Assembly: GCF_032854445.1 (NCBI RefSeq)
Contig: NC_088296.1
Coordinates: 6,129,435-6,193,434, forward strand
Reading direction: 5' to 3'
DNA from: Liolophura sinensis
Taxonomy: Eukaryota; Mollusca; Polyplacophora; Chitonida; Chitonidae
DNA length: 64,000 nucleotides
Shown: positions 35,101 through 41,100 of the stretch, in pieces
Layout of the letters: the number at the start of each line of letters is the position of its first letter
Position numbering within the stretch: position 1 is the first letter of the stretch
Translations under genes and position numbers: made by a program
Notes under the pieces: generated by a model
What the model was told of the DNA's origin: nothing
Seen by the model: the letters and a program-made list of their open reading frames with translations, nothing else
The model's database searches: none

Positions 35101-38100
35101 GAGAGTGTAGAGGAGCAGAAGAAAGAAGACAGACGGAATGAAAAGAAGAGGGACGATGAGGAGAGGAAGAAGAAACTAGAGAAGAAACAGCAGATGTAAG
35201 TAATCTGATTTGGACTCGCACATGTATATTGCTCTATATTTATTTATTTATTTGATTGGTGTTTTACACCATACTCAAGAATATTTCACCTATATGATGG
35301 CGGCTGACATTATGGTGGGAGGTAACTCAGCAGAGCCTTGGGGGAAACCCATGACCATCCGCAGGCTGCTGGAAAATATTCCCACGTGTGGGTGGAGAGG
35401 AAAGCAGCATGAGCACTCACCGCATTGGTCATTGTGGTGAGTGACCAGTGCGGTCTTAGCATCTCGCTGGCGAGCTAACCCTTCGTCTACGGAGACCCCT
35501 GTTGCTTGTAAAGTACAGGGGTAATAATTCATGTATTTAGTTTGGTGTTATACGCCGTACTCAAGAATATTTCACTTATATGATGACGGCCAGCATTATA
35601 GTGGGAGGAAACTGAAGCAGAGCCCGGGGGAAACCCACGACCATCCGTAGGTTGCTGGCAGACCTTCCCACGTACTGCCGGAGAGGAAGCAAGCATGAGC
35701 TGGACTTGAACTCACAGCGTCCGCATTGGTGAGAGGCTTCTGGGTCATTACGCTGCGCTACAGTGGCAATAATGTTTGCCCATTCACTTCAGTTTTTGTT
35801 GAGGTCGTCACTCTGAAGAGCTCGAAATACTTAACGTCTTAAACCTTGAAGTACTTCTTTGTACACATTCACATTTGTCTAGACCAGCCTTTAACGTACC
35901 TTAGGGTACACATCTCATTCGTAACAACGTTATTTTGGAGAGACACGTCTCATTATCTGCTTGCCGAGTTACAAGTGGCGTTCCTGTTATGAATTTCTTT
36001 AGTCACTGACTGCTTGTGAAATATGAATACATATATACTGTAGTAAACAGACATGTGATGGTGATTGTCAAGTGTACATGCATGTCAAACATTTCAAGTC
36101 CGTGTCATCATTGAGTAGATACATGGTAACCAAACCTCTGGGAAGAAGACGCATATGTCTGTGGTGGATTACTTTCATAGTGTTTTGTTATTTGACATTC
36201 AGTTGAGTCTTGATGCTTGGCCACTGGTATTGCTCTAAGGAACATAAGAGCTTTAATTTGTATGATTGTGCTTTTTTTTTAAAAAAATGGAATTTTATGC
36301 GGTTTTTTGCAGAGAAGAGGAGAAGGAAAGGAAGAAAAAGCTAAAATACGAACAAAAAAAGAAAGAAAAAATCCAAGAGTACGAACTAAAGAAGAAGGAA
36401 AAAGTACAATGTAAGTTGGTTTGTAACCAGGTAATCTGTTATTTAGGAAAGGTGGGGTCCTCTGTGGCTCAGTTGGTTAGTGCGCTAGCGCAGCGTAATG
36501 ACTCAGGAGTCTCTCACCAATGCGGTCGCTGTGAGTTCAAGTCCAGCTCATGCTGGCTTCCTCTCCGGCTGTACGTGGGAAAGTCTTGCAGCAACCTGTG
36601 GATGGTCGTGGATTTCCCCTGGGCTCTGTTCAGTTTCCCCCCACCATAATGCTGGCCGCTGTTGTATAAGTGAAATATTCTTGAGTACGGTGTAAAACAC
36701 CATTCAAATAAATAAATATATGTTTAGGAAAGGTTGTTAAAGCAATTGATGTAACGGGCAAAGCTGACTTAGTTCAGTGATGATATTGCCACAGTTTGAC
36801 ATGTAACACGGTAGAATGAGATGTTCCCAGCCAAGATATACAGATGTCTCGATTACTTTAATTTGGGCACACCCTGTACTGTTATATTCGGCCTTAACAT
36901 GGGTGCGCCCAAAATTTATAGTTGCCTTTTTACTCATTAAAGGTAAATCACTAGATCAGCCAAGTTATTGTTTTTCAATAGCCTGCCAAGTTTGGATACA
37001 TTCATGATTCATTACAGTGGAAAATGTTACACCTTCAGACGGCTACCTGGGGCAATTTGTACAGTGGGCATGCCCTTTAAGATGATAATTTTAAGCTGAT
37101 TACAACTGATTTTTAGGGACATCGGGTTTTTCAAAGTATCTAATCTTTGATTAAAAAGGCCAAAACTTTTATCATTTAATATTTGCTTATGGAGAGTCTG
37201 CTAGTACTGTAGAAGAATTTTCAGCTGGTTTTGATTCAAAATAATTCTCTTTTTGTTTAATTTTTGCTTATGGCTTATTAGATGGTTTTGATTCGAAATA
37301 AGTCTTTTTTTATTTAATTTTTGCTTATGAAAGTCTGCCAGTACTGTAGAAGAATTTTCAGCTGGTTTTGATTCAGAATAATTCTCTTTCTTGGACTCAC
37401 TGTAGCAATCAAAGAAATCCAATCAACAATAGCAAGTTGATTAGTCATTTAATTTCTGTGTTTCAGTCATCCACACAGAGTCCATTCTAACAGACATGGA
37501 TCGTGAAATTAAGATGTCTCTACAGATAGAGCATACAGTGAGTACAATTGCCTTGGTCAACAAACAAAACACAAGCAGTAAATCACCTGTAATTTTCATG
37601 GTGTTTTTTACTGCCTGACTAACTTGTAGATGCTTAAGTTTAATGGCAATCAGGTAATTATTTATATCTATATTTAATTATTTATGTGTAATTATTTTCA
37701 TAAGTTGTCATAATTACTCCCATGGAGGACATAACAGTGCTTTTCCATGTTTTCAGGTTCTGTCTATGAAAACTTAGTATATATATCTTCCCTAGTCATC
37801 TAAACTTGTGCATGCTGAAGTTTAATTACAATCGGGTAATTATTTTCATAATTACTCCTGTTCAGGTGCTTGGTTCAGTACTGGATTTTCATGCTCACAG
37901 ATATCGTCCATGCATCTCCTGCTGAAGTATTGCACCAATTTCCCTGATACATGGTGTAGATCTTTTGTATCATCTAAACATCTACATCATTAATAATAAT
38001 GGCAGTCTGATCACTTATTTTACTCTTTGTCTGTAAAAGATTTGAGCAGATGTGCTTGAAGTTGACATTACATAATGTGTTATAGGATGTGAACTTTGTT

Positions 38101-41100
38101 CTGTGTTATAGGTTGTGAGCTTTGCTCTGTGTTATAGGATGTGAGCTTTGTTCTGTGTTATAGGATTGGAGCTTTGTTCTGTGTTACAGGATGAGAGCTT
38201 TGTTATGTGTTATAGGATGTGAACTTTGTTCTGTGTTATAGGATGTGAACTTTGTTCTGTGTTACAGGATGAGAGCTTTGTTCTGTGTTATAGGATGTGA
38301 ACTTTGTTCTGTGTTATAGGATTGGAGCTTTGTTCTGTGTTATAGGATGAGAGCTTTGTTCTGTGTTATAGGATGTGAACTTTGTTCTGTGTTATAGGAT
38401 GTGAACTTTGTTCTGTGTTATAGGATTGGAGCTTTGTTCTGTGTTACAGGATGAGAGCTTTGTTCTGTGTTATAGGATGTGAACTTTGTTCTGTGTTATA
38501 GGATTGGAGCTTTGTTCTGTGTTATAGGATGAGAGCTTTGTTCTGTGTTATAGGATGTGAACTTTGTTCTGTGTTATAGGATGTGAACTTTGTTCTGTGT
38601 TATAGGATTGGAGCTTTGTTCTGTGTTACAGGATGAGAGCTTTGTTCTGTGTTATAGGATGTGAACTTTGTTCTGTGTTATAGGATGTGAACTTTGTTCT
38701 GTGTTATAGGATGTGAATAAGTGTATAGCGATCATGGAAGATTTGGACTCTCTACCTGTGACACAGGTGATGCTGAAGAAAAACTCTGATATCATGAACA
38801 CCATCAAAAAGGTAAGTTAGAAAATAGAGATATGGTGAACACCGTTAGAAAGGTAAGTTAGGAAACAGAGATATCGTGAACACCATCAGAAAGGTAAGCG
38901 AGAAAACAGAGATAAGGTGAACAACATCAAAAAGGTTGGCTAGAAAACAGAGATGGCATAAATCCCCATCTAAAAAGGTCCATAAGAAAACAGAGATATC
39001 GTGAACACCATCAGAAAGGTAAGTTAGAAAACAGAGATACCATGAACACCATCAAAAAGGTAAGGTAGAAAACAGAGATGTCATAAGCTAGAAAACCCAG
39101 AGACTTTAAAAATGGTCCTTGTTGCTACCTCGCTCAGCACTGAGAGGTAGAGCAACAAGACATGACTGATTGGCCAGGTGTCTAATGTGACTGGATGGGG
39201 TGTCATGTCTGGTGTCCTTGGCATGATACTTCAGTGGCAGCATGAACTCACCCTGTCACAAGGCACAGTATATGTACTCACACCTAATGATTCCTCGCCG
39301 TAATATGACTAAAAAATTGTCAAGTACGACGTAAAACCCCAAGTATACGTACATACATATAAAACACTGTCAAAAAGATAAGCTATAAAACCCAGATATC
39401 ATGCGCATTTAGGAAAGGGTAAGTTATAAAACTCCTGTGTCTTCTACAAGTGAACTCATAGGTCACCTTGCTACCAGATCTACTTACTTTTCAATCACTG
39501 TTGTCGAGCATGCTTCCCATGCCATATTGTGGCCATGCAAGTGGCTGGAGGTGATGTCTCTGAAGCTAGTGATGGAAAGAGCACTGAAAATCACTAGAAA
39601 CAGTCAGAAATTGTTGGAAAAACTGGAATTACAGTAACATGCTACACCTACACTTCTAGTGACTGCATATTAAAGCACAAGGGTCAGGACCCTCTTTCAC
39701 AAAACCTCGTAAATCAGTTTTTCCCTAATTTTTCTTGTAAATGATGCCACCTTATGGCGCTACAACCTAGACAACGTCCTTTATGAAAAGCGTTATGAGA
39801 AATATTACTTACGAAGTGTTGTGAAAGTGGCCCGTGAAAAATCTTTAGTTATTGTTAACAGAAGCTCTCAGTATTTCTCAACTAGAGAAAAAAACAAAAT
39901 CATGCCAAAAAGTGAGAAATCTATTTAAATATTATACTCTTGAAATCATTGGGCTTATTTTCAGTGTCGGAAGTACAAAGGCAGTGAGAAGGTCCGTCAG
40001 AAAGCTGAGCTGATATACAACAAATTCAAGAACTTATTCCTGGTAGGAGAAGGCGAGTCATTCATGCAGGTAGGGAGATGATACAGCCAGATTTCACGCT
40101 ACCTGAGTTTGAGTTCTGACGGTCATACAATTTAACTGTTAGGCCTATTTCTTTTACAAGTCAATAGTTCAGTTTCCATCTGTAACAAGTGTGTTTATTG
40201 AAGAGGGAGAAAAAACAAAACTTTTTTATTTTTTATATCTATGAAATATTTTAGCAATGCTGTATCCAAGTATTGCGTTCTGATTTAAACTGGACTGAAA
40301 AAAATCAAATTTTATTTTTTCTGGGTGATGATCACATCCCTGCCTCAGTAAGCTAATGACTTGTTTTGTTTTTGCCAGGTATTTCATCGTGAAGCAGCTC
40401 AGTATAAGAGGCAGATGGAAGAAGAAGAGAAAGAGAGGCGAGAGAAAGACAACAAGGAGAATGAACTGATGAATAAAGAAACCGATCCGGGTAAAGATCA
40501 AGTTTTTATAATATCTCAGGGAAACCAGGTGTAAAGTTATAGGTGTAACTGCCTCAAAACATAACATGAAAAAAAACAAAAACAAAATGCACAAATAAGG
40601 AAAAGTTTCAAACAATGAGCAGACAATGGTTTGTGAGTTTTCAGTAAAGCTGACCGATTATTTTACAGAAGATTTCACGTGACGTTTACACATAAGCACT
40701 AAAAGAAAAGCTGCAGGGAAATTTTGTTGTGATTATCGAAGTTGTCATTATAACATGTTGAATTCAGATATGATGATAATCATGACTTTGCACCCGTGCG
40801 TTCGTGGGAAGGTCTGCCAGCAACCTGCGGATGGTCGTGGGTTTCCCCCCGGGCTCTGCCCGGTTTCCACCCACCATAATGCTGGCCGCCATCGTATAAG
40901 TGAAATATTCTTGAGTACAGCGTAAAACACCAATCAAATAAATAAATAAATAAATTGCACCCATGCTGTTTAGTTTTACTGAAGTTATCTTCGGATAAAC
41001 TTCAGATAGCATATTCTGCAAAATAATTATCTTTTGTGGCATGGAAACTGTACATTGGCATTGGTTTTAAAGATATTTTCGTTATGAAAATGATGTGTTC

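Follow-up and report, generated by a model that had tools for sequence, protein, structure and literature searches.

The term mirage denotes minisatellite-like tandem copies of exon/intron boundaries, found in lancelet genes at either boundary (PMC3087553, PMC3902484). As the available portions of these two papers describe them, the lancelet arrays, in Adh3, BflGb6, BflGb9, PGBD5 and troponin C, consist of boundary-spanning units that carry splice signals and undergo turnover; globin units measure 150–160 bp and reach six copies, and Adh3 units measure 10–72 bp. Array length is unstable, and reverse transcription PCR suggests that splicing is undisturbed. Here we analyze 64,000 nt of the chiton Liolophura sinensis (GCF_032854445.1, NC_088296.1, positions 6,129,435 to 6,193,434, forward strand; hereafter the window), in which one exon of a LEDGF/HDGF-related gene is flanked upstream by tandem copies of its own acceptor junction and downstream by copies of its own donor junction. 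The exon, E15, is 102 nt long and encodes the middle of the LEDGF integrase-binding domain (IBD). Like lancelet mirages, both arrays are built of boundary-spanning units carrying AG or GT. They differ in their 26- and 41-bp units, in the 24 acceptor copies, in having molluscan proteins as first-ranked relatives and in affecting both boundaries of one exon; the text available from PMC3087553 and PMC3902484 contains no lancelet exon of this kind.

Human genes offer further comparisons. The 31-bp variable number tandem repeat (VNTR) of CBS, c.1444_1467+7(16_21), is likewise a donor-junction array, polymorphic at 16–21 copies, and its name points to units made of 24 exon bases and 7 intron bases; unlike the arrays described here, it involves one junction only (PMC2630376, part of the text). 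The VNTR is reportedly linked to reduced enzyme activity, going by the title of a 2001 paper by Lievers. The CBS variant 844ins68 also duplicates a junction, that of intron 7 and exon 8, and the distal site is used to yield normal mRNA, but it is a single 68-bp duplication and not an array; the part of PMC2630376 consulted calls the site a donor in its text and a 3′ splice site in a title cited there. Boundary tandem repeats in human segmental duplications and the dual-specific sites of UBC and VCX3A resemble our case in that repeat-borne sites can alter splicing; there, according to the sections available, they do so through changed exons and repeat-embedded or new introns, whereas the copies in L. 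sinensis lie on either side of a conserved exon (PMC2812944, PMC10809524). The initial annotation of this sequence stated that no case with both junctions replicated had been described. We also found none in the literature searched, which left subscription papers mostly outside and did not cover the first description (Canestro 2002); as a claim of general novelty, the statement gives way to the mirages and CBS polymorphisms in print. Junction arrays as a kind were already known, and it is probably the extreme copy number and the two-sidedness that stand out, on a background of growth that was probably harmless.

Anatomy of the two arrays

The gene was modeled from splice-site-consistent exons, 18 of which were placed, two of these being duplicate copies. 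The predicted protein has at least 955 residues, with a PWWP domain at the N-terminus (Pfam PF00855, E 3.2e-16, 60 bits against a cut-off of 25.6) and an IBD near the C-terminus (PF11467, E 2.4e-30, 105 bits against 26.3; PSIP1 IBD in the PDB, 6tvm, E 1.4e-23). A homologue search with the IBD gave a single match among ten candidates, from octopus; with the PWWP domain, ranks 1–5 of 513 were two octopuses and three gastropods, and the remainder of the best 120 were mostly vertebrates. Judged by both domains, the gene is LEDGF/HDGF-related and E15 an IBD exon, in agreement with the initial annotation. The 34-residue block encoded by E15 is present in all nine homologues that were aligned, out of 120 listed.

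On the acceptor side, the motif GTGTTA[TC]AGG occurs 25 times between 38077 and 38709 at exact 26-bp spacing, in 24 units and at the exon's own site, and gave no match in 100 dinucleotide shuffles. Each unit joins about 8 nt of exon edge to 18 nt of intron edge, with TTATAG or TTACAG ahead of roughly eight bases that resemble the exon start; AG terminates all 24. The number and period first annotated hold by direct reading, Tandem Repeats Finder (TRF) and scripts. The true acceptor and 22 of the decoys share a pyrimidine content of 0.65 ahead of the AG; the remaining two decoys have 0.53 and 0.59, and decoy 1 has the lowest value. The 24 units comprise eight distinct sequences that recur every seven units, with 10/17 pairs at lag 7 identical, a fraction equalled at any lag from 1 to 12 in 7 of 10,000 shuffles of unit order. 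All four singleton variants lie within the first seven units, and the edge of the array is thus less homogenized, as is characteristic of mirages.

The donor-junction array comprises the exon's own copy and six more, at +41, +82, +123, +166, +207 and +248 from the donor at 38811/38812, with GT at 38812, 38853, 38894, 38935, 38978, 39019 and 39060. Its units are about 80% alike (TRF). The seven units annotated at first stand, as own copy plus six; the roughly 21 exon bases assigned to each do not, as alignment on GT shows that a unit repeats the final 24 bases of the exon and continues with 17 intron bases. GT is present in all six copies and GTAAG[TCG] in four; the motif was absent from 100 dinucleotide shuffles. 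Five of the seven donors are good, as expected from the claim of at least five (GTAAGT, GTAAGT, GTAAGC, GTAAGT and GTAAGG; U1 duplex energies of -9.5 to -10.6 kcal/mol, compared with -5.4 to -11.8 kcal/mol across the whole gene), and two are decayed (GTTGGC and GTCCAT, -5.4 and -4.1 kcal/mol). The decayed donors argue against selection for every site.

We conclude that these are probably two independent junction-spanning minisatellites that grew neutrally and are tolerated through exon-centred site choice. Slippage or unequal exchange at the acceptor and at the donor would each have copied a short exon edge together with the adjoining intron edge, and the copies would have grown outward into the introns of a minisatellite-rich genome. 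The higher-order pattern of period seven is typical of tandem turnover and supports this origin, as do the comparable junction arrays at HDDC3, MED12 and ankyrin-repeat exons of the same genome (see below). Neutral slippage had been one option of the initial annotation; array abundance, the lack of an excess at junctions and the precedents favor it here.

An assembly artefact, in which the copy numbers were expanded or collapsed or the arrays misassembled, is highly improbable. Mirage arrays were misassembled in a lancelet draft (PMC3087553) and copy numbers varied between lancelet assemblies (PMC3902484), as far as the accessible parts of these papers report. In our case, however, the locus lies within a 28.4-Mb contig and is single copy in an assembly search, the unit variants are ordered and the flanks intact, and donor units only about 80% alike would be hard to make by misassembly.

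Site choice and the outcome of errors

About thirty closely similar splice sites compete around one conserved exon, a natural duplicated-splice-site experiment. Minigenes with identical competing 5′ sites indicate that sites closest across the exon are favored if introns exceed 250 nt, and the rule of Reed and Maniatis, by which sites closest across the intron win, was assigned to intron-defined splicing (PMC9225289, in the sections available). The introns flanking E15 measure 1172 and 1153 nt, or about 548 and 905 nt with the copies subtracted (coordinate arithmetic). Both lie above 250 nt, and the exon-centred rule therefore points to 38710 and 38811, the combination that yields the IBD. Under this rule the decoys are expected to be mostly silent, and mirages would last mainly beside long introns. 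Use of the inner pair alone would be strong in vivo support for exon-centred pairing, with arrays predicted to survive mainly where introns are long; otherwise, repeat length would be a direct and fast-changing control of protein output.

Translation of the decoys, taken one at a time and not in combination, shows that mistaken use of any of them ends in a stop, as had been claimed. The 24 upstream acceptors lead to a stop after 10 codons in 13 cases, 18 codons in five and 25 codons in six; use of any of the six downstream donors keeps GTA AGT TAG in the transcript and so places a stop at the third codon. The expected result, nonsense-mediated decay (NMD) or truncation, was therefore annotated correctly as far as the stops are concerned, but skipping of E15, which is in frame and loses 34 IBD residues, was overlooked, as was the poor branch-point context. 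The universal stop looks like a default outcome and not a design, because the 33-bp extension at an ankyrin-repeat exon and the first extension at a MED12 exon are open in frame.

Several observations weigh against neutral growth with exon-centred choice. The part of PMC9225289 consulted contained no test of the rule in a mollusc. The density of GAA, GAG and AGA fails to mark out E15 (6.9 per 100 nt, compared with 5.8 in the acceptor array, 17.2 in the donor array and 15.1 in other exons); base composition, by contrast, counts in favor of that explanation and differs between the exon (A 0.36, T 0.25) and the acceptor array (A 0.18, T 0.45). When arrays are placed at random, both edges of an exon fall in arrays without the exon being swallowed in 3.8% of 20,000 placements, and this crude model therefore makes a two-sided arrangement uncommon if growth is neutral. 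Finally, decoy 1 is the best placed for use. The strict branch-point motif is yUnAy. The nearest example upstream, TTGAC, lies 20 nt upstream of the AG of decoy 1, and the motif scan found none within the acceptor array; having the nearest strict motif before decoy 1 and not before the true acceptor favors use of decoy 1.

TTGAC may be the ancestral branch point, pushed away from the exon by array growth. A strict yUnAy is found 15–60 nt upstream of 14 of the gene's 17 acceptors and is missing at E15, E16 and exon E5. The initial annotation counted about 25 near-identical 3′ splice sites; this holds for AG and pyrimidine tract, and not for complete 3′ splice sites, because the array lacks strict yUnAy. 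Since AGs less than 8–12 nt from the branch point are not selected (PMC5224494, part of the text), an array-borne GTTAT in the preceding unit, 29 nt off, could act as branch point. A weak acceptor may lead to in-frame skipping of E15.

A rival reading is a tuner set by array length, in which decoy use or skipping would yield a length-dependent share of NMD targets or of IBD-defective protein. Stops at 30/30 decoys used singly, the in-frame loss of 34 IBD residues on skipping and a strict branch-point motif before decoy 1, with none 15–60 nt before the true site, agree with it, and vertebrates have a p52 isoform without the IBD, an effect comparable to the outcome of such a tuner. Early stops, however, would be expected for most repeat units, two of the six donor copies are decayed, and the HDDC3, MED12 and ankyrin arrays share no common design, the ankyrin extension being open in frame. 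We regard the tuner as very unlikely. A more specific form, in which the paired arrays are a heritable, fast-changing dial on a chromatin-tethering factor, is a distant prospect: with TTGAC (38062) displaced by more than 600 nt and weak array-borne branch points in its place, array length would set the ratio of full-length, IBD-less (skipped) and NMD transcripts. If true, the dial would make mirages at many exons a widespread source of splicing variation.

RNA structure could also reconcile the array with accurate splicing, in that the acceptor-array RNA would fold back and hide the decoy AGs and pyrimidine tracts, making the array tolerable and perhaps being selected. The predicted fold of the array (-221) is far stronger than that of dinucleotide shuffles (mean -139, sd 5.5, 40 shuffles). 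One predicted fold has the AGs in units 4–23 largely paired and the GT of the true donor largely unpaired (0.24/0.30), with five of the six decoy donor Gs paired (0.85–0.98). Arrays with random variants were as strong in 0/150 and 0/150 cases, altered unit orders in 4/150, and arrays with relabelled variants in 12/600 on the sense strand versus 427/600 on the antisense strand. Yet shuffled-unit arrays were as strong in 20/300, which makes the fold not unusual, and the effect of the variants comes mainly from one substitution, A8G, in a series of several structure tests. Moreover, the true acceptor is predicted to be paired (0.97/0.94) and decoy 1 open (0.10/0.15). A protective hairpin is thus very unlikely, and neutral growth with exon-centred choice remains the preferred explanation. 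Pairing between the acceptor and donor arrays, as might promote a circular RNA, was rejected: the duplex with the last five acceptor units (-59.5) does not surpass shuffles (-62.2), 145/200 of which were as strong.

Table 1. Coordinates of the features discussed (positions in the window)
Feature	Position	Strand	Basis
Acceptor-junction array, 24 complete 26-bp units	38086..38709	+	Direct reading, TRF, scripts
Donor-junction array, own copy and six copies	38788..39079	+	Spacing 41 bp, once 43; TRF, scripts
IBD exon E15, 102 nt (exon 16 in the initial annotation)	38710..38811	+	Phase 0/0, 34 residues
Nearest strict yUnAy branch-point-like motif, TTGAC, A at 38065	38062..38066	+	Motif scan; putative branch-point role
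Preceding IBD exon E14	37467..37537	+	Ends in phase 0 before GTGAGT
Next IBD exon E16	39965..40069	+	Splice-consistent model
LEDGF/HDGF-related gene	12585..43114	+	Splice-site-consistent model; PWWP and IBD domain matches
Junction array of six 43-bp units from the HDDC3/MESH1 exon 2 donor (third in window)	9546..9797	-	TRF, sequence comparison
HDDC3/MESH1 exon 2, 56 nt, VANILVEEADISDLTVIQ, donor CAG/GTAAGG	9798..9853	-	Joined protein against PDB 3nr1, E 5e-66; HD_4, E 1.6e-20

Tandem arrays in the gene, the window and the genome

Tandem arrays, counted by TRF at period 6 or more, are abundant. They make up 13.8% of the window, 21% of the introns of the LEDGF/HDGF-related gene (5774/27538 nt) and 11.7% of 98 kb of further sequence, taken from nine stretches next to the window and from one on a different contig. 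The gene holds 18 such arrays, a few of them inside exons. Random placement of 18 arrays covers a mean of 6.0 of 34 junctions (2.5–97.5% range, 2–11), and two or fewer in 7% of runs. Two are covered in fact; there is thus no excess of arrays at junctions. The E15 arrays do not belong to a shared repeat family: their matches on other contigs have periods of 31, 28, 25 and 25 bp and other units, and appear to be unrelated minisatellites whose composition is similar.

The neighbor of the LEDGF/HDGF-related gene, HDDC3/MESH1, carries the third junction array of the window (Table 1). Its copies have only TCC or TCCA in common with the exon end; of the five decoys, three retain GTAAGG after a poorer preceding base and two lack GT.

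A pattern search extended the comparison to the genome (609 Mb, 632 contigs), with one reversed motif as the control for each pattern. Three copies of AAGGTAAGT at 25–55 bp spacing gave 117 matches, compared with 71 for the reversed pattern, and three copies of TTTTGCAG gave 166 compared with 83. For AAGGTAAGT, distinct loci numbered at least 18 versus 14. Fourteen loci with the reversed motif mean that arrays with any given 9-mer are common anyway, and with so small an excess many of the arrays that contain donors may carry it fortuitously.

Homology supports an exon at two loci. At L057 (G000:C12:2792600-2794000), the 24 residues encoded just ahead of the first donor match MED12 (PDB, E 7e-7). 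Seven donors follow one another at intervals of 38–42 bp, the first of them closing the exon, and the array reaches the end of the fetched stretch. L051 (G000:C8:1479500-1481200) is probably a donor array at an ankyrin-repeat exon, which matches positions 3–33 of 33 of PF00023 (E 8e-4, slightly under the curated cut-off) and, like the MED12 exon, is closed by the first donor in a series of seven; a 33-bp copy there lengthens the open frame by 11 codons and brings in no stop. Donor arrays at HDDC3, at MED12 and probably at the ankyrin-repeat exon extend mirages beyond lancelets, where the name was found, and make a genome-wide test possible.

Other candidates gave less. PDB searches returned no significant match for L021, L029, L047, L059 and L060 (two at E 0.6–0.7). 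Pfam gave none at E <0.001 for eight of nine candidate peptides in one set (L041 reached 0.12, and the MED12 peptide was also missed) and none for four of five in a second set. By eye, L059 (G000:C6:31320150-31320600) and L060 (G000:C5:8755600-8756100), both on the minus strand, resemble donor mirages, with exon-like frames whose end coincides with the foremost copy in a run of several donors; they lack a significant homologue and are not relied on. Several further donor loci likewise look exon-like by eye and have no homologue. A combined test for an open frame and an acceptor before the first donor was passed by 6/20 array loci and 105/737 ordinary sites; this crude test missed the ankyrin exon, passed some loci in the wrong register and was not used. 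The 20 loci were 17 of the 18 donor loci (L058, which begins inside its array, was omitted) and three others. On the acceptor side, none of the six pattern loci fetched, a small sample, proved to be an acceptor mirage; no exon was seen by eye at L061–L064, two of which, L061 and L064, break off within the array. This small genomic sample yielded neither another acceptor-side case nor another two-sided one.

Other features of the gene and its surroundings

Two further features touch the gene model. The purine-rich stretch at 25713-25870 is K/E-rich in three frames, none of which is open throughout. It is likely an exon of the LEDGF/HDGF-related gene, possibly with an indel, and was omitted from the model because its frame could not be fixed. 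Upstream of E14, a tandem duplication, 2.6 kb or longer, relates 30199-32759 to 33001-35597 in two blocks, 97.3% and 92.8% identical; its extent is a lower bound, as the query pieces ended at 33000. The duplication yields two copies of a 122-nt exon, at 32241-32362 and 35074-35195, with identical peptides. As 122 nt is no whole number of codons, inclusion of both copies would shift the frame, and the copies would have to be used singly. Elsewhere in the window, a 60-bp repeat at 10713-10875, in 2.7 copies, is open in one plus-strand frame, which reads as EFLDIVSMAHKAHHRGDVTS repeated.

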